A stretch of 64,000 bases of DNA, taken from positions 62,001 to 126,000 of the forward strand of contig JAFQAR010000043.1 of NCBI GenBank assembly GCA_017399905.1, given 5' to 3'. Positions within the stretch are counted from its first letter, which is position 1; the number at the start of each line of letters is the position of its first letter. The notes beneath the pieces were generated by a model. It worked only from the letters and a program-made list of their open reading frames with translations. It was not told the origin of the DNA and did no database searches. Both the position numbers and the translations under genes were made by a program. This DNA comes from Bacteroidales bacterium (GTDB lineage Bacteria > Bacteroidota > Bacteroidia > Bacteroidales > UBA932). This document shows positions 24,714-37,764 of the stretch, one piece after another.

Positions 24714-26624
24714 ATGGCAGAAAGATTAACCATCATCGACTTTGTCGAGAAGTATGTTGCCAAGTATTCGAAGAACCCTTTCCTCTGGGAAAAGAACCTC
24801 GATACTAACGTATGGGAACCTACAACTTATGAAGAGACATTGGCTAAGGCAAAACGCATTGCTGCCGGCCTCATGGCCCTCGGAGTACAGAAGGGCGAGA
24901 AGATTTCTTACCTCAGCGAAGGCCGCGACATGTGGGTCATCGGAGAACTCGGAGTCCTCTATGCCGGTGCTGTGAACGTACCTCTTTCCATCAAGCTGGG
25001 CGAGACCAACGACCTGGTGTTCAGAGTGAAGCACTCTGACTCGAAATATGTGATCACATCGAAGTTCCAGCTCGCAAAGATCAGAGCTGTCCTTCCTGAG
25101 TGCCCGATGGTGGAGAAGGTGATCATCTTCGACCGTATCGACGACATGAGGAAGAACGAGATCTACATAGGCGACGTCATCGAAATGGGAGACAAGTTCC
25201 TCGCTGAGCATGAGGAAATGTTCATCCAGAGATACAGGAGCATCGAACCTGACGACTATGCGAACATCAGCTACACATCAGGAACGACCGCTGACCCTAA
25301 GGGTATCCTCCTGACTCACAGGAACTACACAGCAAACGTAGAGCAGGCTCACTCTGTGATCGGAGTCGGCCCTGAAGACAGGATGCTCATCATCCTTCCG
25401 CTCGACCACTGCTTCGCGCACGTGGCCGGCTTCTACACGATGATGTCATACGGTGCTTCCCTCGGTATGGTTCCGTCTGGAAAATCAGGCAAGGAGGCCC
25501 TCAGAAACATATCTCCAAGCATCCAGGAGCTCAAGCCGAGCGTAATGCTTTCAGTGCCTACACTCGCAAAGAGCTTCAAGAAGAACATCGAGACTACAAT
25601 CTCAAAGAAAGGCAAGACAATCGAGAAACTCTACAACTTCGCCCTCAGGAACGCCATCGCATACAACAAGGAAGGCTACAACAAGGGAACTGAGTTCGTG
25701 GACATCTTCCGCAAGCCTCTCATGCTCCTCTTCGACAAGCTCATCTTCAAGGCAGTACGTCAGGGACTCGGCGGCAACATGAAGTTCTTCGTGGGCGGCG
25801 GCGCTCTCCTCGACATCGACCTCCAGAGATACTACTATGCCATCGGAATCCCTATGTACCAGGGCTATGGTCTTTCCGAGGCGACCCCTATCATCTCTGC
25901 AAACTCACCTGCAAGACATATCTTCGGCTCGTCAGGAAAGATCGTCCAGCCTATGGAGATCAAGATCCTCGACGCTGACGGAGTAGAGCAGCCTTTCGGA
26001 TCGAAGGGTGAGATCTGCATCAAGGGCGAGAACGTGATGGCAGGCTACTGGAAGAACCCTAAGTCTACAGCCGACACCATCGTGGACGGATGGCTCCATA
26101 CAGGTGACATGGGCTATATGCGTGACGAGGAAATGCTCTACGTCGTAGGACGTTTCAAGTCTCTGCTCATTGCGGCTGACGGCGAGAAATATTCACCTGA
26201 GGGAATCGAGGAGAACCTCGTGGAAAGCTCTAAGTATATCGACGGAGCCCTCCTGCACAACAGCCAGGATCCTTACACCATCGCCCTCATCACTCCTAAC
26301 AAGGAGGCTCTGAAGGCCTATGTGAAGGAACTCGGCCTTGACCCTGCTTCAAAGGAAGCGAAGGTCAAGATGCTCGAGCTTCTTCAGGATGAGGTCAACA
26401 TGTACCGCAAGGGTGGACGCAACTTCGGAGCATTCCCTGAAAGATGGCTTCCTGCAGCTGTCTGCGTGCTTCCTGAGCCTTGGACAGAGCAGAACCACTT
26501 CCTCAACAGTTCGATGAAGGTCGTCCGCGGCCGCGTTGAGGAGGCCTACAAGGCAAACATGGAGTATGCATATACTCCGGAAGGCAAGAATATCGTCAAC
26601 GACATGAATCTCGCATCGCTATAA
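24714..26624 (+). CDS. AMP-forming long-chain acyl-CoA ligase
   Basis: Activates fatty acids through an acyl-adenylate to acyl-CoA. The adenylate-forming signature YTSGTTADPKGILLTH lies near residue 182, GYGLSEATP near 385, and LHTGDMGYM near 462. The C-terminal lid domain follows. It is 636 residues, in the range of bacterial FadD-like enzymes. The end of the gene overlaps the convergent invertase gene by 29 bp. The substrate chain length is an inference from family resemblance. Confidence 0.9.
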   Translation: MAERLTIIDFVEKYVAKYSKNPFLWEKNLDTNVWEPTTYEETLAKAKRIAAGLMALGVQKGEKISYLSEGRDMWVIGELGVLYAGAVNVPLSIKLGETNDLVFRVKHSDSKYVITSKFQLAKIRAVLPECPMVEKVIIFDRIDDMRKNEIYIGDVIEMGDKFLAEHEEMFIQRYRSIEPDDYANISYTSGTTADPKGILLTHRNYTANVEQAHSVIGVGPEDRMLIILPLDHCFAHVAGFYTMMSYGASLGMVPSGKSGKEALRNISPSIQELKPSVMLSVPTLAKSFKKNIETTISKKGKTIEKLYNFALRNAIAYNKEGYNKGTEFVDIFRKPLMLLFDKLIFKAVRQGLGGNMKFFVGGGALLDIDLQRYYYAIGIPMYQGYGLSEATPIISANSPARHIFGSSGKIVQPMEIKILDADGVEQPFGSKGEICIKGENVMAGYWKNPKSTADTIVDGWLHTGDMGYMRDEEMLYVVGRFKSLLIAADGEKYSPEGIEENLVESSKYIDGALLHNSQDPYTIALITPNKEALKAYVKELGLDPASKEAKVKMLELLQDEVNMYRKGGRNFGAFPERWLPAAVCVLPEPWTEQNHFLNSSMKVVRGRVEEAYKANMEYAYTPEGKNIVNDMNLASL

Positions 26625-27198
26625 ACTTGTAATAAGTATTACGCGACACACCGATCTTGCGGCAGATCTTCGTAACAGGAAGACCTGCCGCAATCATTTT
26701 ATTGATCTGCTCTTCCTTTTCGCTGATCACCTGCATCTTGACCGTGCTGCCGGGCCGTCGTCCGAGCCGCACGCCCTCCGCCTTCTTCACCGCCAGAGCC
26801 TCCTTCGTGCGCATGGAGATCAGGTTCCTCTCGATCTCCGCGACAAGACCGAAGGCGAAGCACAGGACCTTGCTGTTGATCGAATTGTCGAAGGTGTAGC
26901 GCTCCTTCGTCGTGTAGATGCATATGCCCTTCTCAAGGCATCCGCCCATGATGGTCATGATCTCCGTCAGTGAACGGCTGAGACGCGATATCTCGCTGAC
27001 TATCAGCACGTCGCCATGCTTCATCCGCTTCAATGTGCGTCCGAGTTTCCGCTTTCTGTACGGAATCTTTCCGCTGACAGTCTCCGTTATCCAGCTGGAG
27101 ACGTACATCTCTTTTTCTTCAGCAAACCGACGGATCTCCTCCCGTTGGTTCTCCGGGTTCTGCTTCCCGGTGCTGACTCTTAAATATCCGATGGTCAT
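26596..27198 (-). CDS. Mpi-type serine invertase
   Basis: A small serine recombinase of the Hin/Gin/Mpi group. The start at 27198 gives MTIGYLRVST with nucleophile Ser9. The resolvase catalytic domain runs to about residue 135 (SEISRLSRSL, FAFGLVAEIERNLI). The basic linker VRLGRRPGS and a C-terminal helix-turn-helix (VTKICRKIGVSRNTYY) follow. It is 200 residues. In Bacteroides fragilis the homologous Mpi inverts promoters of many capsule loci; here the gene lies about 2 kb from upxY. Its targets may be anywhere in the genome: I saw no invertible promoter in this window. Its 3' end overlaps the acyl-CoA ligase gene convergently. Confidence 0.87.
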   Translation of the reverse strand: MTIGYLRVSTGKQNPENQREEIRRFAEEKEMYVSSWITETVSGKIPYRKRKLGRTLKRMKHGDVLIVSEISRLSRSLTEIMTIMGGCLEKGICIYTTKERYTFDNSINSKVLCFAFGLVAEIERNLISMRTKEALAVKKAEGVRLGRRPGSTVKMQVISEKEEQINKMIAAGLPVTKICRKIGVSRNTYYKFIAMRDSCR

Positions 27199-27247
27199 AG
27201 TTATAGATAATTTAATGGTTAACATCTGTAATTTACACAAAAAAACG

Positions 27248-27255
27248 TAACTTTG
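27248..27255 (+). promoter_or_regulatory. -7 promoter box of the ABC exporter gene
   Basis: TAACTTTG, a perfect TAnnTTTG, lies 26 bp before the exporter ATG in the 83-bp gap between divergent genes. Confidence 0.45.
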
Positions 27256-27281
27256 GGCGGTTTTAAGTCCCGGAAAATCAC

Positions 27282-28910
27282 ATGGAAAGCTACAGACATC
27301 ATATCAAGTGGTTATGGAAGACATCTGCAGGCTTCCGCATGAGCATCATGGCGGTCGGTCTGGTGAGCGTGATTTCCGTAGCCGTGTCCATGTTCCATGT
27401 GTGGGTCAGCAAGCATCTCGTCGACATAGCGACAGGCAGCGCCGAGGGCCGTCTGGCTCCCTACATCATCCTGATGGCGGCCTGCGCCCTGGCTCAGATC
27501 CTCTTCTATGTCGTCATCAGCCATCTCGAGACAAAGACAGACGTCAGCATACGCAACTCAGTGAGGTACAGCTACTTCATCAAGATTATGGAGAGCCGGT
27601 GGGCGGGCAAGGAGGCCCTGCACACGGGCGACATGCTGAACCGCCTGGAAGGCGATGTCGCCCGTGTGGCCGACACCCTTGCCCGCACGATGCCGGCGCT
27701 GCTCGCGACTGCCGTCCAGCTCGCCGCCGCCCTCCTCTTCCTCGGCTACCTCGACTGGCGTCTCGCCGCCGTGGTGGTCGTGATCATGCCAATAGCCCTC
27801 CTCCTCAGCCGCAGCTACATCAAGCGCATGCGCCGGCTTACGGGAGACATCCGCAGCACTGACAGCCGCATCCAGACCCATATCCAGGAAAACATCCAGC
27901 ACAGGACCCTCATATCCTCGATGGAGAATACAGGTCATGCGATAGACTCCCTCGGAGAGTTCCAGGACGACCTCAAGCAGCAGACCATCAACAGGAACAA
28001 CTATAACCTCTTCTCCCGCTCCATCATCCAGCTGGGCTTCTCGGCGGGCTACATCACCGCCTTCGCATGGGGAGTATCGGGCATCGCTTCGCATGCCATC
28101 ACCTTCGGAACCATGACTGCCTTCCTGCAGCTGGTCGGTCAGGTCCAGAGGCCTATCTCCAAGATAGCCAGGCAGATACCTACCCTGATACATACGATCA
28201 CGTCGATAGACAGGCTGGGCGAGCTGGATCTTCCGCAGGAAGAGAAAGGCGAGCCCGTGCGTCTCGCAGGCCAGCTCGGAGTACGGTTCTCGGATGTGGA
28301 TTTCAGGTATCCGGACGGCACTGTCAATGTGATCGAAGGATTCAGCTATGACTTCAGGCCGGGTACCATGACGGCAGTCGTCGGTGAGACAGGTATAGGA
28401 AAGAGCACGCTGATCCGTCTCATGCTTGCCCTCCTGCTTCCGGACAAGGGCAAGGTGGAGTACTATAATGACGAAGAGACCGTAAGCGCCTCTCCGATGA
28501 CCCGCTGCAACATCGTTTATGTGCCTCAGGGCAATACACTTATAAGCGGAACCATCCGCGAAAACCTCCTCGTCGGCAAGTCGGACGCGACTGAAGACGA
28601 GATGCGCGAGGCCCTCCACACGGCGGTCGCGGACTTCGTCCACGACCTGCCCGAGGGCCTCGACACCCTCTGCGGTGAGCGCGGAGCCGGCCTCAGCGAG
28701 GGTCAGGCGCAGCGCATTGCCATAGCCCGCGGCCTCCTCCGTCCGGGCGGCGTCCTCCTGCTCGATGAGCCGTCGTCCGCCCTCGACTCCCAGACGGAGT
28801 CGCTCCTCGTCGAGCGCATACGCGCCCGCCTCGGCCGCCGCACCCTCATCCTCGTGACCCACAATCCGCGCACCGCCTCTCTCTGCACCGGAACCGTGCG
28901 CATGTCATGA
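27282..28910 (+). CDS. ABC exporter, fused membrane and ATPase domains
   Basis: Half-transporter of the type IV exporter class (MsbA-like architecture). About six transmembrane helices occupy residues 15-300. The nucleotide-binding domain has Walker A GETGIGKST, the signature LSEGQAQRI, Walker B VLLLDEPSSALD and a His switch in LVTHNPRT. It is 542 residues. The substrate is unknown: it precedes upxY, but a promoter lies between the two genes, so it is not clearly part of the polysaccharide operon. It is divergent from the invertase gene. Confidence 0.88.
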   Translation: MESYRHHIKWLWKTSAGFRMSIMAVGLVSVISVAVSMFHVWVSKHLVDIATGSAEGRLAPYIILMAACALAQILFYVVISHLETKTDVSIRNSVRYSYFIKIMESRWAGKEALHTGDMLNRLEGDVARVADTLARTMPALLATAVQLAAALLFLGYLDWRLAAVVVVIMPIALLLSRSYIKRMRRLTGDIRSTDSRIQTHIQENIQHRTLISSMENTGHAIDSLGEFQDDLKQQTINRNNYNLFSRSIIQLGFSAGYITAFAWGVSGIASHAITFGTMTAFLQLVGQVQRPISKIARQIPTLIHTITSIDRLGELDLPQEEKGEPVRLAGQLGVRFSDVDFRYPDGTVNVIEGFSYDFRPGTMTAVVGETGIGKSTLIRLMLALLLPDKGKVEYYNDEETVSASPMTRCNIVYVPQGNTLISGTIRENLLVGKSDATEDEMREALHTAVADFVHDLPEGLDTLCGERGAGLSEGQAQRIAIARGLLRPGGVLLLDEPSSALDSQTESLLVERIRARLGRRTLILVTHNPRTASLCTGTVRMS

Positions 28911-28932
28911 GCCCACTTTACCTCCTAATTCC

Positions 28933-28963
28933 TTGTTATTCTGCAAAATAAGGTCTATCTTTG
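28933..28963 (+). promoter_or_regulatory. Bacteroidales sigma-ABfr-type promoter of upxY
   Basis: TTG (28933-28935), then exactly 20 nt, then TATCTTTG (28956-28963), fits the -33/-7 consensus TTG-N19-21-TAnnTTTG. Transcription would start near 28970, giving a leader of about 125 nt before the upxY ATG. Confidence 0.65.
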
Positions 28964-29051
28964 TTAGTGATATCGTGGATTGGGTGTGTCAATGTGTGAG
29001 AGCTTGGGTAGGGCAGTCGCACTCATTTCCAAAAATCAATATTTATAAATG

Positions 29052-29083
29052 TTTGACGTTCAGGGACTTACTTGGACGTCAAA
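29052..29083 (+). promoter_or_regulatory. Inverted repeat in the upxY leader
   Basis: TTTGACGT (29052-29059) and ACGTCAAA (29076-29083) are perfect inverted repeats around a 16-nt spacer, ending 11 nt before the upxY ATG and just before the GAGAAGG ribosome-binding site. They could form an RNA hairpin that affects translation or bind a dimeric protein. Confidence 0.5.
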
Positions 29084-29094
29084 GCCGAGAAGGT

Positions 29095-29658
29095 ATGCCC
29101 GATACTGAACCAATCCTCTGGTACGCGATGCGTGCGACATACGGCAGGAACCAGGAGGCGAAGAAAAAGCTCGATGAAGCCGGAGTCGAATCCTTCATTC
29201 CGATGCATCATGTGGTCACCATCGACAGAAGGGGAAGAAAGGTCAAGAAGCTTGTGCCGGTCGTGAGGGACCTCGTCTTCGTCAGGACCGACCGCAGCAG
29301 TATGCTCCTTCTCAAGGAACAACTGGACTATCTAAGAAACATCTACATCCCGACCGAGGACGGAAAGAAGCAGATCGTGGTCGTGCCCGACAACCAGATG
29401 GAGAACTTCATCAAGGTCACATTCGCTGCGGCCGACGGCATCCTCTTCTTCAGCCCGGACGAGATCAACCTCACCAAAGGCACACGCGTGCGCATCCACG
29501 GTGGCCAGTTCAACGGCCTCGAGGGCACGTTCATCAAAGTTAAGGGAGCCCGCGACAAGCGCGTCGTCGTCGACATTGCCGGCGTAATAGTCGTGGCAAC
29601 CTGCACCCTCAAGTGCGACCTTGTGGAGGTAATCAAAGACCCTGAAACGACAGAATGA
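29095..29658 (+). CDS. upxY: UpxY-family NusG-like transcription antiterminator
   Basis: Locus-specific NusG paralogue that lets RNA polymerase read through the polysaccharide operon. The start at 29095 is chosen because GAGAAGG lies just upstream and the product begins MPDTEPILWYAMRATYGRN, the normal NGN-domain start; the longer frame from 28933 would include the promoter. The NGN domain spans residues about 8-105 and a KOW motif (VRIHGGQFNGLEGTFIKV) about 130-165. It is 187 residues, as in UpxY proteins. The stop overlaps the next start (ATGA). It is first in the polysaccharide operon, the usual place for upxY. Confidence 0.9.
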   Translation: MPDTEPILWYAMRATYGRNQEAKKKLDEAGVESFIPMHHVVTIDRRGRKVKKLVPVVRDLVFVRTDRSSMLLLKEQLDYLRNIYIPTEDGKKQIVVVPDNQMENFIKVTFAAADGILFFSPDEINLTKGTRVRIHGGQFNGLEGTFIKVKGARDKRVVVDIAGVIVVATCTLKCDLVEVIKDPETTE

Positions 29659-30083
29659 TCATCGCAGTAGACTTCGACGGCACCATCGTCGAGCATCGTT
29701 ACCCGCACATCGGCAAGGAACTCCCCTTCGCCATAGCATCCCTCAAGCAGATACAGTCGGAAGGACACGCCCTCATTCTCTGGACCGCCCGTGAAGGCAG
29801 GCTCCTGCAGGAAGCCATCGACTTCTGCGAAAAGCGCGGCCTGGAGTTCTTCGCCGTCAACAGCAACTACCCCGGCGAGGAAGTCGACGAGGCCGGCATC
29901 CGCGCCCGCAAGCTCCACGCCGACCTCTTCATCGACGACCGCGCCGTCGGCGGCCTCCCCGACTGGGGCGCCATCTACGAGGTCGTCCACAACCGCTGGA
30001 CCTGGCGCCAGTACTACGAATACCTCGGCACCCTCCCCAAGGAGGAGAAGAAGGGGTTTTGGGCTAGGATTTTTGGGAGGTAG
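29655..30083 (+). CDS. Small HAD-superfamily phosphatase
   Basis: Predicted cytosolic phosphatase without a cap domain. The nucleophile motif is DFDGT (Asp6, Asp8), with WTAREG as motif II and FIDDRAVGG as the metal-binding motif. The 142-residue length resembles small Bacteroides HAD proteins found in polysaccharide loci. The ATG overlaps the upxY stop, so the two are translationally coupled. It is not an UpxZ, which is the usual second gene in B. fragilis capsule loci. The C-terminal LPKEEKKGFWARIFGR is basic. Confidence 0.85.
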   Translation: MIIAVDFDGTIVEHRYPHIGKELPFAIASLKQIQSEGHALILWTAREGRLLQEAIDFCEKRGLEFFAVNSNYPGEEVDEAGIRARKLHADLFIDDRAVGGLPDWGAIYEVVHNRWTWRQYYEYLGTLPKEEKKGFWARIFGR

Positions 30084-30086
30084 CAC

Positions 30087-30147
30087 GTCATTCCCGACTT
30101 GATCGGGAATCTGTCATTTCGAGCGAGCATCGCGAGTCGAGAAATCT
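30087..30147 (+). repeat. Two dispersed repeats in tandem
   Basis: Unit 1 (30087-30112) is GTCATTCCCGA ... TCGGGAATCT, unit 2 (30113-30147) is GTCATTTCGAGCGAGC ... GAGAAATCT. They mark the left border of the AT-rich accessory island. Confidence 0.75.
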
Positions 30148-30192
30148 GTTGGAATGGAATTTTCAAAGGAATAGAAAGAAAACTATTAATAT

Positions 30193-31257
30193 ATGAAACT
30201 GATACATTGTGGTTTAGCAAACAGAAGCTGGAGAACTGACCGGATAGGTTTGTTCTCTCAGAATCTTCTTGTGGGAAAGAATTCAGTAGGAAAATCGACC
30301 CTTATAAGGGGATTGTCGCACATGGCCTCTCTTCTCTCTCAAAGAAGGCCTTTGGGGAATAATGAAGATATAGCTTGCCTGATTGCCATAGAGGATGAAA
30401 AGTTTACAGCAATATACAGATTTGCGTGGAATGATGCGAAAGTCCAGGATGAGTTCCTGTCTGTAGTCTATGATGATGGACATAAAAAAGTGTGGATCGA
30501 ACGTACTGCTGAAACTGCAAAATTTGAAGGTGAAGTTGTAAACCCTCCTCAAGACAAGCTCCTGCTCAACTTGAAAAGAGATACTGTATTGTATCAGGAA
30601 ATCGAATCCATCATATCATGGGCAGAAAACGTAGATGCCTTTTCATTTAACGAGTTTGATATTGACGGAGACGACAGACTGTATTCGAGGTTCATAAATG
30701 GAGGAGATAACCTTTATTCAATGCTCAGAACTTTGGATAAGGACTCTATAGACAACGTTCTGAAAACAGCTGCGGATATGGACTACCATCTTGATAAGAT
30801 AGAGGCAGTGGAATTCGCTGATATAAAGAAAGTTCTTTTTGTCGAGAAGAATGTTGTGGAACCGCTTTTTGACGTTACTTTATCAAAAGGAATGTTCCGA
30901 ACGCTTTATCTCTTGATCTATCTTGAATATGTAACTAAATCCGGCAAACCGGCAACTCTTCTGATAGATGACCTTTGCGAAGGTCTCGATTATGACCGCT
31001 CCACCAAGCTTGGCAAGTATGTGTTTGATTATTGCTCAAAGAACGACATCCAGCTTATAGCCTCTTCAAATGACTCTTTCCTGATGGATGTGGTTGACTT
31101 GAATTATTGGAGCATACTTCAAAGAGATGGCAGCAAGGTTTCATCAATAAATTGTGAGAATAATCCCGAACTTTTCGAGGATTTCAGTTTCACTGGATTA
31201 AGTAATTTCGATTTGTTATCATCAGACTTTATAGCAAGACACAACAAAAAGAAGTAG
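30193..31257 (+). CDS. AAA/ABC-type ATPase of a putative defence pair (pair 1)
   Basis: An SMC-like soluble ATPase of 354 residues. Walker A is GKNSVGKST (residues 28-36), a signature-like LSKGMFRTLYLL lies near 235, Walker B LLIDDLCEGLD near 257, and LIASSND near 287 stands in the switch position. The region between holds helical insertions. The next gene starts 5 bp after the stop and encodes a putative TOPRIM-like protein; ATPase plus TOPRIM/DUF pairs are common in anti-phage systems such as PARIS. The gene is AT-rich compared with upxY-HAD upstream, suggesting transfer. I do not recognise a named family, so the defence role is inference from architecture. Confidence 0.75.
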   Translation: MKLIHCGLANRSWRTDRIGLFSQNLLVGKNSVGKSTLIRGLSHMASLLSQRRPLGNNEDIACLIAIEDEKFTAIYRFAWNDAKVQDEFLSVVYDDGHKKVWIERTAETAKFEGEVVNPPQDKLLLNLKRDTVLYQEIESIISWAENVDAFSFNEFDIDGDDRLYSRFINGGDNLYSMLRTLDKDSIDNVLKTAADMDYHLDKIEAVEFADIKKVLFVEKNVVEPLFDVTLSKGMFRTLYLLIYLEYVTKSGKPATLLIDDLCEGLDYDRSTKLGKYVFDYCSKNDIQLIASSNDSFLMDVVDLNYWSILQRDGSKVSSINCENNPELFEDFSFTGLSNFDLLSSDFIARHNKKK

Positions 31258-31262
31258 GGAAG

Positions 31263-31973
31263 ATGAATGTGAGGAAGGTGGCTCTGTTTGTTGAAGGATT
31301 GGCAGAGCAGGTGTTTGTGAGAGATTTCCTGGTTAAATGGTATGGCTGGGATATTAATAAAGTAGGTATCGATTGCTATATGCTTCATGCTGGTAATGAG
31401 CATTATGCTCCATACTCACATGGAAGTGTTGATAGTGAGAATTATTACCAGATCTTCAATGTCGGCAATGATAACAGTGTGCTGAGCGTTATGCTCGACA
31501 GGGCAGACAGATTGCATAATGCGGGTTATTCATTGGTGATAGGTTTGAAAGATATGTTCAATAAGGTTTACCATCAGAAAACATTTCAGAAGAACAACGG
31601 ACGTATCATAGATCCGGAACTCAATGAAAGGTTCATCCAAAGTGCAAAAGATACGATAGAGATTTCTTCCAAGCCATTGGAACTTCAGATGCACTTTGCC
31701 ATCATGGAAGTTGAAGCCTGGCTGTTGGGAATGCCTAAGCTTATGGAACATCTTCAAGATGTCAGCGATCCTGAAACGGACATCTACCACCCTGCGGTAA
31801 AGCTTAAGGAACTGATGGAGGACCTGGGTTCAGGATATGACAAACACAGCAAGGATATAGAGACCATAATCGGAGATCTTGAGAAGGAAGACTATCTCGC
31901 TTTGTATGAATCCGGTAGGTGCCAGTCATTCAGGAATTTTGTGGATTCATTAGTGGACGTAAAAGAAAACTAA
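31263..31973 (+). CDS. DUF4276/TOPRIM-like putative nuclease (pair 1)
   Basis: 236 residues. The start KVALFVEGLAEQVFVRDFL has the Glu-Gly of TOPRIM and DUF4276-type proteins. VIGLKDM near residue 95 and the acidic FAIMEVEAWLLGMPKL near 140 could supply further metal ligands, and EVEAWLL is typical of this broad group. No transmembrane segment is seen. Tight spacing to the ATPase gene implies one operon. In comparable pairs the ATPase senses an invader and releases or activates this effector. The nuclease assignment rests on short motifs only; a ligand-binding or adaptor function is possible. Confidence 0.6.
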   Translation: MNVRKVALFVEGLAEQVFVRDFLVKWYGWDINKVGIDCYMLHAGNEHYAPYSHGSVDSENYYQIFNVGNDNSVLSVMLDRADRLHNAGYSLVIGLKDMFNKVYHQKTFQKNNGRIIDPELNERFIQSAKDTIEISSKPLELQMHFAIMEVEAWLLGMPKLMEHLQDVSDPETDIYHPAVKLKELMEDLGSGYDKHSKDIETIIGDLEKEDYLALYESGRCQSFRNFVDSLVDVKEN

Positions 31974-32091: not shown

Positions 32092-33402
32092 ATGAAATTA
32101 TCATTAAGAAATGTCAATAAGATCAGAAAAGCAGATGTTGAGCTGAATGGATTGACTGTGATAGTTGGAGAAAATGATTCAGGAAAGAGTACGGTAGGAC
32201 GTATTCTTTTTACGATTATTAAATCATTGGTACATACAAATATAAATGATCAGAAAAGAACTGATGAACTTGTCAAGAAGTATGTGAACTCATTTTACAA
32301 GAGATTGTCAAAAGGTGAGTTTTCTGTTGTGGGTATGGAGCTAAGTCAGAGTCCATTTCCTAGGGTGGCAACAGAATTCATACGTGAAATACAAGAGGCG
32401 GTTTCGATAGACGAATATATTAAAGAGAAATGTGAGGATGTAGATTCTCTATCATCTTCTCCTAGATTAAAATCGTTGATGAAGGATGACCTCAATAGAA
32501 TACTGATCTGCAAGACTCACGATAATGATAGGGCTGCAAGCCTCCAAACTGTTTTTCAGTTTGTTGCAGAGTCTGAATTCCTAAATCAGCTGGGAGTAAA
32601 TAACGAAACCCTTGATATATCGTTATATGATGAAGCAGATAAAGAAATATTCAGTCATCGAATAGATGGAAGTAAGGCAGTAACTGGATGTAGAGATGGA
32701 GAACCATTGAGTGATGTAGTATACGTTGAGTCTCCGTTGTACATGCATCTTTTGGAACTTTTAAAAAGGACTCAGGTATATACTGAAACAGAAAACAAGC
32801 AATGGTTTCTATCTCCTATGGTTCCATATCACATTAAGGATTTTGCCGATAAATTGAATACGACGAGATCGAATACCATGAGTTTGTTCTCACATAATGA
32901 TTATAACTTCAACTCTAGTGAAATTGTAGGTGGGGAATTTGAGTATGACAAGAAAAAGAAATCACTTGTATTCAAGAAAGAAGGGATGGAGCTATACCCA
33001 TTAAATGTCGCGTCTGGTATCAAGATATTCGGTGTTCTACAGATATTGCTGGATTCAGGATACATAAGTGCTGAGTGTCCACTTGTCTGGGATGAACCAG
33101 AGAATCATCTTCATCCGGAATGGCAGGTTGAGTTTGCAAAGATATTGGTTCAGCTATCTAAATCAGGTGTTCCTGTCTTGATAACGACTCATAGTCCATA
33201 TTTTCTTCAGGCTATACGTTATTTCTCTGCATTGGAAAGAATCGAAGACTTTGTGAACTATTACTCAGCGGAATGTGTTGAAGGAAATATGGTGGATATG
33301 GTTGATGTGAAGGAAGATCTGAATAGTGTATTCCTTAAATTAGCTACACCGTTGAATAAGATTATGAATGTGGATGCTGCAAGACAAGGGTTAGAATTGT
33401 GA
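32092..33402 (+). CDS. AAA15-type ATPase of a second putative defence pair
   Basis: 436 residues. Walker A is GENDSGKST (26-34). The C-terminal half has LNVASGIKIFGVLQIL as the signature region, CPLVWDEPENHLHPEWQ as Walker B with the OLD/RecF-like DEPExHLHP form, and LITTHSPYFLQAI as the switch His. The central part is a helical insertion. This arrangement is that of OLD-family/AAA15 ATPases but without the C-terminal TOPRIM domain; the adjacent gene probably supplies the nuclease. The stop codon overlaps the start region of that gene. Function in phage defence is inferred. Confidence 0.8.
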   Translation: MKLSLRNVNKIRKADVELNGLTVIVGENDSGKSTVGRILFTIIKSLVHTNINDQKRTDELVKKYVNSFYKRLSKGEFSVVGMELSQSPFPRVATEFIREIQEAVSIDEYIKEKCEDVDSLSSSPRLKSLMKDDLNRILICKTHDNDRAASLQTVFQFVAESEFLNQLGVNNETLDISLYDEADKEIFSHRIDGSKAVTGCRDGEPLSDVVYVESPLYMHLLELLKRTQVYTETENKQWFLSPMVPYHIKDFADKLNTTRSNTMSLFSHNDYNFNSSEIVGGEFEYDKKKKSLVFKKEGMELYPLNVASGIKIFGVLQILLDSGYISAECPLVWDEPENHLHPEWQVEFAKILVQLSKSGVPVLITTHSPYFLQAIRYFSALERIEDFVNYYSAECVEGNMVDMVDVKEDLNSVFLKLATPLNKIMNVDAARQGLEL

Positions 33403-33404
33403 GT

Positions 33405-34013
33405 ATGACTGCAGAGCAATTTTATAAATATATTAAACAAAATTTTGATGTCAATGATGTGATTCTGTGCGATTTGCATAAGCCATGCAAATCAGTCCGC
33501 AGATGTAAGCATGAACCACATCATCCAGTGGTTGATTTTGATGATATTAAGAAAAAATATCATGCTGGCCTTTCAGGAGATACACCTGCATCTGTTGATG
33601 GAATAACTTTTTCAGGACGAAGACTTTGTTTTGTGGAGATGAAAGGTTGGGTGGAATTTCTGACTCATCTGAGGGCAAAAAACAAGGCTATTGCTATCGA
33701 GAAAAAAGCAGCTTCGTATGACTTAAATAAAAAGCTGTTTGATAGTTTAGATATATGTGAAGTTCTCTCAGGAACACAAGGTCAACTATCGGATGTGCCC
33801 ATTACGTTTGTTTTGGTTACAGATATTGAAACTGAATCAAATGGATTATTTATGTTCCATTCAAATCTGTTGAGACTTGCAGATCCGGCAGATAACTGGA
33901 TAGATACTTGTAATAAGGAGCTACGTGCCCGCTTGGATGCAATTCCTGATAATATACCAACTGTGTATATCAGTTGTAAGGATTTTGATGAGACTCTTGC
34001 CAAACTAGCATAG
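33405..34013 (+). CDS. Putative PD-(D/E)XK nuclease partner of ATPase 2
   Basis: A 202-residue soluble protein; an alternative GTG start at 33399 adds two residues and overlaps the ATPase stop. The core ASVDGITFSGRRLCFVEMKG fits the D...ExK pattern of PD-(D/E)XK nucleases, with Asp on one strand and Glu-Met-Lys on the next. An N-terminal Cys/His cluster (ILCDLHKPCKSVRRCKHEPHH) might bind zinc. The rest is alpha/beta. Pairing with an overlapping AAA15 gene suggests a two-component restriction-like system. I know no named system with precisely this pair. Confidence 0.6.
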   Translation: MTAEQFYKYIKQNFDVNDVILCDLHKPCKSVRRCKHEPHHPVVDFDDIKKKYHAGLSGDTPASVDGITFSGRRLCFVEMKGWVEFLTHLRAKNKAIAIEKKAASYDLNKKLFDSLDICEVLSGTQGQLSDVPITFVLVTDIETESNGLFMFHSNLLRLADPADNWIDTCNKELRARLDAIPDNIPTVYISCKDFDETLAKLA

Positions 34014-34073
34014 TTTTAGTGAAGAATGCTATAGTGAGGGACATAGATATTGAATATCAAACATATCAATAAA

Positions 34074-34433
34074 ATGAAACTATTAGACACCATTATGAAC
34101 TGGCTTGAGAAATATGGCCGTACTATATGGTACATGCTTCTATTAGTGTTATCAATTGTTTATGTTGCAATAAATTTCTGTGATTTTATTTCTACTGAAT
34201 TGTTGAAAGGGTTTACGGGCAGGCATGTTCTGTTTATTGTTTGTCTGGCCTTACTGGTGTCTCCTCTTTTTGATTCGTTTGAAGGTTTTGGCTTTAAACT
34301 TAGCAGGAGGAAAAAAGAACAGATGGATTCTGAACTGAGTGAATTATCTAAAAAAGTCTTGACCAAAGATGATATTCAGGTCAAGAATTTGGAGACTGAG
34401 TTCAAGAAGGTAAAGCGATACGAAGAAAAGTAG
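34074..34433 (+). CDS. Small membrane protein of unknown function
   Basis: 119 residues from the ATG at 34074 (a TTG eight codons upstream is less likely). Two hydrophobic helices, about 16-38 and 50-70, are followed by a charged, coiled-coil-prone tail (SRRKKEQMDSELSELSKKV). No catalytic motif is visible. It follows the nuclease-like gene by 60 bp and precedes the next gene by 3 bp, so it is probably in the same operon. Many defence operons end with a small membrane effector, but nothing in this sequence proves that role. Confidence 0.6.
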   Translation: MKLLDTIMNWLEKYGRTIWYMLLLVLSIVYVAINFCDFISTELLKGFTGRHVLFIVCLALLVSPLFDSFEGFGFKLSRRKKEQMDSELSELSKKVLTKDDIQVKNLETEFKKVKRYEEK

Positions 34434-34436
34434 GTT

Positions 34437-34703
34437 ATGAAAGATTATATATATAATAAAGTTCGAGATCTTGTTCAGGATGGTCTTAATCAAATGAGAA
34501 ATTATAATCTTTCTGAGAGCCAGTATATGATTTGGCTTAAGTATTCTCAAGAATTATTGAGAATTATCACAGTTGATTATAATCCTTCAATTTATCTGAA
34601 TTATCTGAAAGTTGGATTGAATATGAATAATTCGTTGACTCCGGCACAAAAGGTGGGGGTTTGTGTGGATTATCTGATAGGGGTTTTACGTGTTCTGCTT
34701 TAG
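34437..34703 (+). CDS. Small helical protein of unknown function
   Basis: 88 residues, predicted soluble and mostly helical, rich in Tyr, Asn and Leu (for example YIYNKVRDLVQDGLNQ). It begins 3 bp after the preceding membrane-protein gene, implying translational coupling. I recognise no domain. Confidence 0.55.
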   Translation: MKDYIYNKVRDLVQDGLNQMRNYNLSESQYMIWLKYSQELLRIITVDYNPSIYLNYLKVGLNMNNSLTPAQKVGVCVDYLIGVLRVLL

Positions 34704-34741
34704 AAAAACAATCCTTTTTATTCTCTTCGAGTAAGAATCCT

Positions 34742-35542
34742 ATGAAAAGATTTAAGAAATACTGGTGGCTTTTAATTTTGATAGTAGTTGCTCCTATTAT
34801 TATCAATTATGCCCTTCTTATACCAGCTTTCGGACCGGTTGTGGGAGATAATGTGCATTGGTTGTCTTTTTGGGGAAGTTATCTGGCAGCACTTATTCCA
34901 GCCCTCGGAGCCTTTATTATCCTATTTATTCAGCGGGAGGATAATCATAATGAAAACAAGCATAACCGTCAACTTCAGGTCGATGTTTTGAAATATCAGC
35001 AGGAAATGCAGTGGCTGAATGAGAATAAGGATATCCTGATTGATTTTGCTTTAACGCTTAGTAAAGATGACCTTATTGAACTATCAAATAAGATTGGTGA
35101 AGGCAAGGACATCCTGCAAGATGTTAAAGTTCTTATGGGAAATCTAGTAAAACATGATTCTCGAGTAGGATTTATGAATGTGCCTGAAAAAACTGAGGCA
35201 TATAAACAATTCAATGATGAAAGACATCGCGCTTTTTATGCGCATAGGGATGCTATCCTGGATCTTCAGGAAATAAATATTCTATTTATGAGGACTCCGC
35301 TGATTCAGCGGCATATGACGTTGCAAGCTCGTTTGCAGCAAGGACTGATTCATAAGGGATTACAAGAAGTGATTGCTACTTACCCAAATGAGGCAGCTTT
35401 CATTCAGGCGAATCCTTTTGATGTTTCCATCGGATTGATTTCACGAATTCCAGATTTACTTGAAACAACCCGTAAGGCTGCATTGGATTATGTAAGGGCT
35501 GAAGAAGAAAGAATAGCAAAGATTTTAACTGAAGACAACTAA
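34742..35542 (+). CDS. Two-helix membrane protein with cytoplasmic helical domain
   Basis: 266 residues from the ATG at 34742; the longer frame from 34661 overlaps the previous gene and lacks a sensible start. Helices at about 8-28 and 38-60 (WLSFWGSYLAALIPALGAF) precede a long, charged alpha-helical region. The WxxFWGSYL type of second helix occurs in uncharacterised membrane proteins of mobile and defence regions; this is recalled resemblance, not a search result. It is followed 17 bp later by another two-helix protein, so the two may act together. Confidence 0.65.
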   Translation: MKRFKKYWWLLILIVVAPIIINYALLIPAFGPVVGDNVHWLSFWGSYLAALIPALGAFIILFIQREDNHNENKHNRQLQVDVLKYQQEMQWLNENKDILIDFALTLSKDDLIELSNKIGEGKDILQDVKVLMGNLVKHDSRVGFMNVPEKTEAYKQFNDERHRAFYAHRDAILDLQEINILFMRTPLIQRHMTLQARLQQGLIHKGLQEVIATYPNEAAFIQANPFDVSIGLISRIPDLLETTRKAALDYVRAEEERIAKILTEDN

Positions 35543-35559
35543 AGTCAAACACCTGACCC

Positions 35560-36594
35560 ATGAAAAAACTCCTGGACCTCCTCATATCGGTACTTCTATT
35601 GGCGATGATAGCCCTCGTTGGTTACGTCGCATATGCGGTGTATGACCAACACAAGCAGGCGGAAGCATCACGCAGCAATGTCGAAACCTTCTTCGAGCGT
35701 ATCGAGGCTGCTCCGGCAGATGAAAACGGTGCGGTCCATATCTCCAGGGACGACCTCAAACTCCTCGCGGACTCGACGATAAACGACAACTCGAACGTTA
35801 TGGATATCAACAACTTCATATCCATAATGCTCACCCTGATAACATTGTGCCTGACATGTTCGGCGATCATACCATACGTCGTCGCAAAATTCATCTCCGA
35901 AAGCAAGATCAAGGACACTGTCGAAGACGTGTACGCAAAGGACAAGGAACGTACGGACAGGCAATACCACCGATCTGTAGAAAAGCTCGAAGTCGCTGAG
36001 GCACATATATCAAGGATGATTGCCTATAACCTCAAGAAAATGGATTCCATAAGGAAAGGCATAGTCATGACTCCACATGCATCATATGATTATTCGGAAC
36101 ATGCCGTGTGGACCATCGGTTGGGCATCGAAGGCATTGATCCGATACATAAGGAACGCCAATGCCAATAATGTCCGCCCGAACGAGGTAAGCAAGTTCTG
36201 CGCTGAATGTATCTCGTACATATGTGACTCAACTGTCGTTTTGTCCTCTATAAGTGTGTCTGGAAGTCACAAGGACAAAGCCCTCCGCGCTGTGTGTGAT
36301 GCTCTGGATGCATTGTTCTACTACAATGAGCTTCAGACGAAAAATACAAGCGTTGGTTGCATAATGTCCAAGGCCGATAAAGATAAATTATGCTGTTGTG
36401 CTGTCAATCTGTATCTGCGCATCGATCCGAAGCCGCTTCCATCAGCTTCGGCACCATGGCCTGCATCCGATAATATTGAAGCCATTGCCGCAAAGTCCAA
36501 GTATGAAGAATACATGAGGGATGACGATGGGAAGCCAGTTTCATGTAAAGATTTCAAGAATCATCTTGCGGACTTTTTGATAAAGAATTCATAA
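35560..36594 (+). CDS. Membrane-anchored protein of unknown function
   Basis: 344 residues. The first helix spans about 5-30, followed by a short loop with a SRDDLKLLADS segment. A second helix spans about 85-110, and a coiled-coil-prone segment and cytoplasmic helical domain make up the remainder. The base composition is closer to the housekeeping genes than to the AT-rich genes around it, suggesting a different origin. No catalytic motif is recognised. It is the last gene before a repeat array. Confidence 0.65.
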   Translation: MKKLLDLLISVLLLAMIALVGYVAYAVYDQHKQAEASRSNVETFFERIEAAPADENGAVHISRDDLKLLADSTINDNSNVMDINNFISIMLTLITLCLTCSAIIPYVVAKFISESKIKDTVEDVYAKDKERTDRQYHRSVEKLEVAEAHISRMIAYNLKKMDSIRKGIVMTPHASYDYSEHAVWTIGWASKALIRYIRNANANNVRPNEVSKFCAECISYICDSTVVLSSISVSGSHKDKALRAVCDALDALFYYNELQTKNTSVGCIMSKADKDKLCCCAVNLYLRIDPKPLPSASAPWPASDNIEAIAAKSKYEEYMRDDDGKPVSCKDFKNHLADFLIKNS

Positions 36595-36607
36595 ATCCTG
36601 TTGTTTT

Positions 36608-36805
36608 ACGTCATTGCGAGGAGGGCAAAGCCTCCATACGTCATTGCGAGGAGGGCAAAGCCTCCATACGTCATTGCGAGGAGGGCAAAGCCCGACGTGG
36701 CAATCTGATTACAATCATCCCGGCGAGCGAAGCACTCCCAGTCATTCCGAGCGAGCGAAGCACTCCCTGTCATTCCGAGCGAGCGAAGCGAGACGAGGAA
36801 TCTAA
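36608..36805 (+). repeat. Tandem array of the dispersed GTCATTCCGAG repeat
   Basis: The array starts with three 30-bp copies of ACGTCATTGCGAGGAGGGCA..., the third ending GACGTGGCAATCT. Two CATTCCGAGCGAGCGAAGCACTCC units and a closing unit GCGAGACGAGGAATCT follow. No unique spacers lie between the units, so it is not a CRISPR. Confidence 0.85.
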
Positions 36806-36866
36806 CCAAACACAAATGCAAAACCACTCCGAAAACACGAAGCGCATAGCGAAGAATACACTGATG
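36790..36866 (+). repeat. 77-bp direct repeat, left copy
   Basis: It begins GAGACGAGGAATCTAACCAAA, the end of the repeat array, and runs through CCACTCCGAAAACACGAAGC to CACTGATG. A nearly identical copy lies at 37890-37966, so the two flank the DUF2971 gene. Confidence 0.85.
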
Positions 36867-36891
36867 TAGCACGGACGATACAAATTTTATT

Positions 36892-37764
36892 ATGCAGGAA
36901 GAAATTACTCCACTATATCATTATACTTCTGTTGAAGGTCTGTATGGCATCTTTAAGGATTATTCAGAAATAAATCCTTTTGTCACGATGAGAGCAACAG
37001 ATATTAGTTTTTTAAACGATTCATCCGAATTTTTGTTTGGGGTTGAAGTTTGTAAGGAAGTTTTGAATATGTATGAAGATAATCATAAAATTGATTATGA
37101 CAATGGGGGTATTTCTTGGATAGTAAATAGTTATGTGCATTCTCCAAAGGAAAATTCAAAATTATTCAACTTCAAACAAGATATATGTGTTATATCATTA
37201 AGTAAGACAAGAAGTAGTGCTGCTATGTGGAGCATGTATGCTTCACAAGGTAAAGGTGTTAGTATAATATTTAATAGCGAGATATTAAGATCTATAAAAG
37301 GAGTATATTTAAATCCATGCTTTTATGCGAAAGATTCTTTTGATTTTCTAAACAAATATGAAAGAGAATTTGAGCAGTTCTATAATAACTCGAAAAGTAT
37401 ATCAATATCTGGTGTACCTGAAGAATATACTGATGGCTTAAAGCGATACATTAATGATTTCGGATTTTGCCAATCTTTGTTTTCTAATTTAGTGTCAATA
37501 ATAAAGAATTCTGCGTACGATTATGAACAAGAATATCGTATGGATATCACTAATATGAAACCTTATCTTTTTAGAGCAAGTAAAGGCCTTATAATTCCAT
37601 ATAAGGAAATAAAGATTCCTATTGAAGCTATTGAGGGAATTCTAATAGGTCCGGTTGCTGATTATAGTCTTATAAAATTGTCAATACAAAAGTATTTTAA
37701 TTCTTTAGGTCTTGAAAAATTAACAGATAAGGTATTTGAATCAAATGTTCCTTATAGAGGATAA
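36892..37764 (+). CDS. DUF2971-family protein
   Basis: 290 residues beginning with the typical LYHYTSVEGLYGIF and followed by FLNDSSEFLFG, the LND..E pattern of DUF2971. Later segments SKTRSSAAMWSMYASQGKGVSI and YEQEYRM also fit. The family's biochemical role is unknown to me; members are frequent in accessory and defence regions. The gene is very AT-rich, is bracketed by 77-bp direct repeats, and is followed 6 bp later by a truncated PIN-like ORF, which suggests it moved in as a cassette. Confidence 0.82.
   Translation: MQEEITPLYHYTSVEGLYGIFKDYSEINPFVTMRATDISFLNDSSEFLFGVEVCKEVLNMYEDNHKIDYDNGGISWIVNSYVHSPKENSKLFNFKQDICVISLSKTRSSAAMWSMYASQGKGVSIIFNSEILRSIKGVYLNPCFYAKDSFDFLNKYEREFEQFYNNSKSISISGVPEEYTDGLKRYINDFGFCQSLFSNLVSIIKNSAYDYEQEYRMDITNMKPYLFRASKGLIIPYKEIKIPIEAIEGILIGPVADYSLIKLSIQKYFNSLGLEKLTDKVFESNVPYRG

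Follow-up and report, generated by a model that had tools for sequence, protein, structure and literature searches.

A stretch of Bacteroidales DNA of 64,000 nucleotides (contig JAFQAR010000043.1; referred to as the window) contains a gene for an OLD-like ATPase that is immediately followed, on the same strand, by a gene for a small nuclease candidate. This arrangement raises the question of whether the two genes together constitute an anti-phage system and, if so, to what extent such a system differs from the ATPase-nuclease pairs that have been described. The question was addressed by analysis of the two proteins and their conserved residues, of the pairing of their homologues, and of the genomic surroundings, followed by comparison with known systems.

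The ATPase and the nuclease candidate

The first gene was described in a first-pass annotation as encoding an OLD-like ATPase devoid of TOPRIM, which is borne out by matches to the Pfam families AAA_21 (1e-17) and AAA_15 (4.7e-16), and by the lack of a match of any Pfam TOPRIM model to the ATPase or the nuclease candidate at E-values up to 1. Moreover, only 69 residues follow H367, which leaves no room for a TOPRIM domain in the ATPase. Residues 1-422 match phrog_14430 (8.9e-49), and the best PADLOC matches are defence models, including HEC-02A (8.3e-28; a model of 338 positions matching a protein of 436 residues) and PD-T4-4_A (1.9e-25). Similarity to SMC_N of Pfam is weak (0.0014) and below the cut-off, and the solved structures that match the ATPase by sequence include an OLD protein, PtuA, and AriA of PARIS.

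The invariance counts of the ATPase derive from an alignment of 43 rows (A8), in which the conserved motifs make up what is, as judged from the sequence, an ABC-type site (Table 1). The NVASGIK stretch would represent the ABC signature, and the unvarying positions in and behind Walker B are D334-E335-P336-E337, H339-P342, and W344-Q345. By analogy with WonA, the FLKLATPL stretch near the C-terminus is a candidate docking site for the nuclease. The ATPases of four relatives (L046, L047, L049, and L055; frames of 603-616 aa) carry an additional N-terminal domain of approximately 165 aa, which remained without match in a Pfam scan of two of them (L046 and L055).

Table 1. Location of the two genes and their conserved motifs in the window, with the basis of each assignment.
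Feature	Position	Strand	Basis
OLD-like ABC ATPase (436 aa); putative regulator that senses infection	32092..33402	+	AAA_21, AAA_15, phrog_14430, PADLOC
Walker A, residues 26-34	32167..32193	+	G26, N28, G31, K32, S33 invariant, 43/43 rows of A8
ABC signature-like NVASGIK, residues 305-311	33004..33024	+	N305, G309, K311 invariant, 43/43 rows of A8
Walker B and next motif DEPENHLHPEWQ, residues 334-345	33091..33126	+	invariant in 43 rows except N338, E343
H-loop H367-S368-P369	33190..33198	+	43/43 rows
C-terminal FLKLATPL, residues 414-421	33331..33354	+	P420 invariant, L417 at least 90% (43 rows)
PD-(D/E)XK-type nuclease candidate, proposed effector	33405..34013 (or from 33399)	+	motif conservation
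N-terminal C22, C28, C34 (with H25)	33468..33506	+	C22, C28, C34 in 19/19 rows of A6; H25 varies
D46 in conserved IDFD stretch (VDFD in window)	33540..33542	+	57/57 rows
D65, proposed catalytic Asp	33597..33599	+	57/57 rows
ExK motif E78-M79-K80	33636..33644	+	E78, K80 in 57/57 rows
K110 in K-x2-D-S stretch	33732..33734	+	57/57 rows
C-terminal C191	33975..33977	+	19/19 rows of A6

The second protein has the 202 residues originally reported when it is counted from ATG 33405, and 204 residues when it starts at GTG 33399 (33399-34013). The overlap of the two genes that had been reported as well is real for the GTG start (4 nt), while the ATG start leaves 2 nt between the genes; as the nuclease genes of the nearest relatives (L019-L021) begin with an ATG immediately past the ATPase stop codon, ATG 33405 is the likelier start and the genes probably abut. 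Residue numbers are therefore counted from this ATG. Both the motif (V64-D65-G66 ... F76-V77-E78-M79-K80-G81) and the Cys/His cluster (C22-x2-H25-x2-C28-x5-C34) that had been noticed in this protein are present.

The window nuclease remained unmatched in Pfam, PADLOC, and NCBIfam at E-values up to 1, and the best match in PHROG had an E-value of only 0.05, with none better in the four family libraries. No match was obtained among PDB sequences (E-values up to 10), among phage and plasmid records (tblastn, 1e-5), or among viral contigs when the nuclease was searched alone. The PADLOC survey proposed for the pair thus recognizes the ATPase (HEC-02A and PD-T4-4_A), while the nuclease matches no model and escapes the 2023 PADLOC collection.

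Conservation of the nuclease was determined in an alignment of 57 rows, hand-chosen as complete partners (A7), which leaves out L084, L040, L082, L101, L052, L060, L092, L098, and some near-copies. D46, D65, E78, K80, and K110 are unvarying in these 57 chosen rows, and hence the first refutation set beforehand, a lack of conservation of the ExK residues in homologues, did not occur. When the profile of this alignment was compared with 17 HSDR_N_2 proteins (from 20 loci; L158, L160, and L170 were left out), the D...ExK stretches aligned in register with a score of 25.6, at a probability of only 11.7% and against a best score of 22.9 for 40 column-permuted control profiles. An in-register alignment was also obtained with HEC-02B-like proteins (26.6, versus 14.6 for the best of 30 permuted profiles) and with the partners of ATPases that are more distantly related; the scores were 29.1 versus 18.1 for L009-type partners and 33.1 versus 16.9 for the L011 partner (best of 30 permuted profiles in both cases), and 21.0 versus 17.5 (permuted) for the L012 partner alone. 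Taken from its sequence, the window protein is predicted to have a nuclease fold and nuclease activity.

Pairing, phylogeny, and the four cysteines

Because the partner is too divergent to serve as a lone query, relatives were sought with the ATPase, and the best 80 of 340 genome loci obtained with the ATPase alignment were taken together with 49 viral loci, 3 of which contain a nearly full-length ATPase match. Pairs were counted in 77 loci of this set with a closed ATPase frame and at least 450 nt downstream, excluding seven loci at contig ends and including the four best of the 49 viral loci (L099-L102), of which L102 was then set aside. Six loci that represent the same places as others (L002-L007, equivalent to L045, L055, L083, L054, L026, and L027) were counted once in this set as well as in the 57-row set.

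The adjacent partner is kept across the relatives of the ATPase, so that the second refutation set beforehand, a known partner of a different kind, did not occur either: 76 of the 77 loci have an adjacent open reading frame of at least 80 aa on the same strand, which overlaps or abuts the ATPase gene in 51 cases, lies within 30 nt in 21, and is farther away in 4, with start offsets taken at the earliest start codon and hence biased towards overlap. By rule, the adjacent frame bears the D...ExK motif in 72 of the 77 loci, which is more than expected by chance: among the other open frames of these loci with a length of 150-280 aa, 13 of 306 bear it, and of the partner proteins after shuffling, 1748 of 15200. 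In L034 a partner with the motif is visible by eye in another frame, the rule-based script having picked the wrong one, while the L084 partner misses the ExK lysine, L040 and L082 have shortened partners, and the frame of L101 is broken. L052, L060, L092, and L098 were counted as motif-positive, yet their partner frames are cut short. A DNA query with the L015 pair found no match in E. coli genomes, nor did the L087 partner as a query in plasmids.

The distribution is patchy. Among 299 genomes of the family, the pair was seen in the window's own genome alone; the PHROG model for the ATPase matched 11 of 295 genomes of the order at 1e-25, the own genome included, and a nuclease profile (A2) found 2 matches in 395 genomes of the phylum, i.e., the own genome and one weak, partial match. 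In the ATPase tree (43 rows) the window pair falls into a Bacteroidales clade that comprises 19 of the sampled rows and has a support of 100/99; 17 of its 18 relatives there are labelled as Bacteroidales or its families and one (L027) only as Bacteroidia. A tree built from the nucleases of these 43 rows recovers the clade (97/94), but includes the cysteine columns and is hence not independent of them. Because the clade is present in both trees, ATPase and nuclease have travelled together within it. At depth the trees disagree: the ATPase tree joins the LC[ST]D group to the SCC group (93/86), the nuclease tree to the Firmicutes group (100/98), which may reflect an old partner swap or tree error; the SCC group does not form a single clade in either tree.

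In one sub-clade, a third gene encoding approximately 715 aa is located directly 3' of the nuclease gene (L038:3017-5155, L041:6569-8731, and L042:5622-7769). The three third genes are homologous (33-45% identity) and have in common the motifs SAPxATGK[ST] and IDALDEG, which resemble STAND/NACHT Walker motifs. They have no Pfam match at 0.001, and tblastn at 1e-4 was blank in the other fetched loci searched.

Four cysteines of the nuclease (Table 1) are invariant in the 19 chosen rows of the Bacteroidales clade (A6), which are 26-45% identical to the window nuclease. L031, which is similar to these rows and was kept outside A6, ends early and misses the C-terminal cysteine. Of the 20 rows of the SCC group, 16 combine a cysteine near the N-terminus (mostly CC) with the aligned C-terminal one. 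Nine rows from proteobacteria and campylobacteria contain a single N-terminal cysteine, which is mostly part of LC[ST]D, and most of them also have a terminal or near-terminal cysteine; in nine Firmicutes, Fusobacteriota, and viral rows the cysteine pair is mostly absent. Overall, 45 of the 57 rows have cysteines at both ends, 5 at neither, and 7 at one end only. Coupled gain and loss of the N- and C-terminal cysteines was evaluated on the 43-row ATPase tree and is unproven, because the tree offers five independent pairs only and the sign test does not reach significance.

According to PMC3466216, four cysteines bind an Fe-S cluster in Cas4 and AddB and zinc in DUF3799, one ligand being N-terminal and three C-terminal. 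Like these RecB-type nucleases, the window candidate has four conserved cysteines distributed over both ends, but with three at the N-terminus and one at the C-terminus their arrangement is the reverse of that in Cas4/AddB. That the four cysteines form a metal staple is a guess from the sequence; if they do bind metal, the protein would represent a PD-(D/E)XK effector whose staple is reversed.

Genomic surroundings and proposed function

The GC content of the window drops from approximately 57% at 29-30 kb to 35-42% at 30-34 kb. Directly ahead of the pair, where the first-pass annotation had placed it, a second ATPase pair (module 1) is located at 30193-31973. Its ATPase matches AAA_21 and, in PADLOC, AriA (4e-17) and AbiLi (7.8e-17), and its second protein shows weak similarity to DUF4276 (0.0038, sub-threshold) and to HEC-01B (0.0042); both proteins, searched by tblastn at 1e-4 over the fetched loci, match the window's own locus only. 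Behind the pair, 34050-36594 encodes membrane-like proteins, one of which weakly matches a SLATT-type model (0.0023), and tblastn over the fetched loci with the four proteins of this region matched the window's own loci only for three of them and nothing for the fourth. This region is followed by two short tandem arrays (36607-36789; units of 30 and 28 nt) under an 88-aa open reading frame on the minus strand, and by a DUF2971 protein (36892-37764; 3.2e-8) that matches the PADLOC candidate PDC-S31 (3.1e-12) and is possibly a further defence gene of the island. Module 1 and the genes at 34050-37761 were considered as parts of the system and rejected, as tblastn detected none of them next to the pair in relatives.

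A NusG-family gene and a HAD-like gene lie upstream of the pair, and genes for an IspD-like protein, a TPP enzyme, a polysaccharide flippase-type protein, and a glycosyltransferase lie downstream. On account of these downstream polysaccharide-type genes, the region from 29092 to 62000 was assigned as a capsule-type locus. Beside it, a serine recombinase gene (26596-27240, minus strand) scores 261.3 bits with the Mpi master invertase model, for which the cut-off is 272. Phase variation by way of an invertible promoter close to the NusG-like gene was considered and dropped, with no convincing inverted repeat in 26400-30300.

Polysaccharide genes also surround the pair in 5 of 26 clade loci. L028 has Wzz and a gene that matches window gene 57066, L029 and L048 have genes identified by eye as Wza-, Wzc-, RmlB-, or UGD-like, L032 has a UGD-like gene, and L039 two glycosyltransferases. 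These relatives occupy two places in the ATPase tree, and the window pair is found in a third. When probes derived from L048, L029, and the window were applied as a panel, they matched 5 of 26 clade loci (L028, L029, L032, L048, and L037), 1 of 23 SCC loci, and 1 of 34 others; the match in L037, an uncertain nucleotidyltransferase, was kept outside the capsule count. Because the panel is biased and the flanks are of unequal length, the recurrence is a lead only; if upheld, it would connect two forms of protection from phages that tend to be investigated apart from each other.

The pair is probably a two-gene anti-phage system in which an OLD-ABC ATPase acts as sensor and a PD-(D/E)XK nuclease as suicidal effector, as in WonAB. 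The ATPase, presumably dimeric, would sense some sign of infection, and its ATP cycle would license the small nuclease, which would be bound in a complex on the C-terminal extension of the ATPase; the nuclease would cut nucleic acid of the infected cell, thereby aborting the infection. By analogy with WonAB, its target may be RNA (tRNA or rRNA), and DNA is possible as well; any assignment of the target is less certain than the defence reading. The conserved partner and motif residues, the clade common to both trees, the in-register profile alignments, the patchy spread, the low-GC island, the neighbouring ATPase pair, and the experimentally tested WonAB of the same plan were counted in favour of this reading, and the lack of a PADLOC match of the nuclease, the 11.7% probability of the HSDR_N_2 comparison, the deep tree conflict, and the defective partners were counted against it.

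Alternatively, the pair could act by direct restriction, recognizing and cutting invading phage or plasmid DNA in a host that survives. PD-(D/E)XK enzymes are mostly DNases, which agrees with such an activity, as does the pairing of OLD-ABC ATPases with HNH, PD-(D/E)XK, or PIN nucleases in BREX contexts of 594 taxa, described in PMC12839542. However, Pfam finds no DNA-recognition or methyltransferase domain in either protein, and overproduction of WonB arrests growth and leaves the genomic DNA undegraded (PMC12137116), making restriction an unlikely function. A housekeeping role in DNA repair, as for RecF or SbcCD, is very improbable; the sub-threshold similarity of the ATPase to SMC_N hints at such a role, but the patchy distribution, the low-GC island, and the defence models as best PADLOC matches argue against it.

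A role in the capsule locus itself, in regulation or processing, would fit the polysaccharide genes around the window pair and five clade relatives. It is equally hard to maintain, since in a partial survey (the probe panel and 20 flanking ORFs of 18 loci) the other 21 of the 26 loci showed no polysaccharide gene nearby, three loci adjoin YhcG (L026), Fic (L020), or SMEK-NACHT (L037) genes, and the wider ATPase family extends over several phyla in the ATPase tree. Within the preferred reading of a suicidal defence pair, it is conceivable, but doubtful, that the Bacteroidales clade is a distinct subtype, in which three N-terminal cysteines and one C-terminal cysteine form a zinc or iron-sulfur centre that holds the nuclease together and possibly also switches it, the Cas4/AddB staple in reverse; which repeatedly travels within capsule loci, so that suicide inside the cell is inherited, and possibly expressed, along with masking of the surface; and in which the STAND-like NTPase encoded by the third gene of L038, L041, and L042 provides a second sensor layer.

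Comparison with known ATPase-nuclease systems

The initial suggestion that an OLD-type ATPase with a nuclease in trans is a variation without a name did not stand, as dyads of an OLD-ABC ATPase and a PD-(D/E)XK nuclease have been published as WonAB (2025), as OLD-ABC ATPase + Novel REase, and as PD-T4-4; no further name for this plan was found in the open-licence literature. The window pair has the general characteristics of these dyads, i.e., OLD-like ABC motifs without TOPRIM in cis, and an adjacent gene with conserved D...ExK residues. Hence the plan is known, and what is new is the Bacteroidales clade with its four cysteines.

The closest parallel in plan is WonAB, encoded by the WASA-1 prophage of Vibrio cholerae and composed of an OLD-ABC ATPase and a PD-(D/E)xK nuclease. 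In PMC12137116 it is described as an abortive-infection system that requires both genes and both active sites for defence and that halts translation upon activation, with rRNA or tRNA suggested as target, and the same account is given in PMC12409358. Like WonAB as described there, the window pair is a two-gene operon of a non-TOPRIM OLD-type ABC ATPase, with Walker A, Walker B, and H-loop residues, and a small candidate PD-(D/E)xK protein in trans. Unlike WonB (16.1 kDa, K71), the window nuclease has 202 residues, K80, and four conserved cysteines; the word 'cysteine' is absent from the main text of the WonAB paper (PMC12137116). The OLD-ABC ATPase + Novel REase of the ABC survey of Krishnan et al., said in PMC12137116 and PMC12409358 to cover all detected WonAB homologues, has the same gene plan, with a representative from Anaerovibrio.

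PD-T4-4, reported in PMC9519451, is classed under the PD(D/E)XK nucleases in PMC10952713. The window pair shares with it the match of its ATPase to PD-T4-4_A, but the nuclease has no match to PD-T4-4_B, and none of the 57 nuclease relatives is listed for that model at E-values up to 0.01. The partner of a distant ATPase relative (L012) matches PD-T4-4_B at 9.2e-9; a search with this model over 229 genomes gave no match anywhere, the controls being likewise blank, and is therefore uninformative. A similar situation applies to HEC-02, as the window ATPase matches HEC-02A and its nuclease does not match HEC-02B, for which the best model (PDLC04229) matches 5 of the 57 nuclease relatives weakly (best 4.9e-6). 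The two HEC-02-like ATPases examined are shorter (332 and 349 aa) than that of the window.

PARIS, Septu (PtuAB), Gabija, and the OLD nucleases have ATPase motifs and a distant kinship in common with the window ATPase. Their nuclease parts are TOPRIM or HNH (PMC12839542 in part; PARIS is treated in PMC10568477). In contrast to PARIS, OLD, and Gabija, the window pair has no TOPRIM detectable by Pfam, fused or adjacent, and unlike the HNH partner PtuB of Septu, its partner belongs to no Pfam family. With K32, E335, K80, and the four cysteines offered as residues for testing, the pair extends the recently recognized defence plan of an ABC ATPase sensor and a small nuclease effector to a clade of the Bacteroidales.
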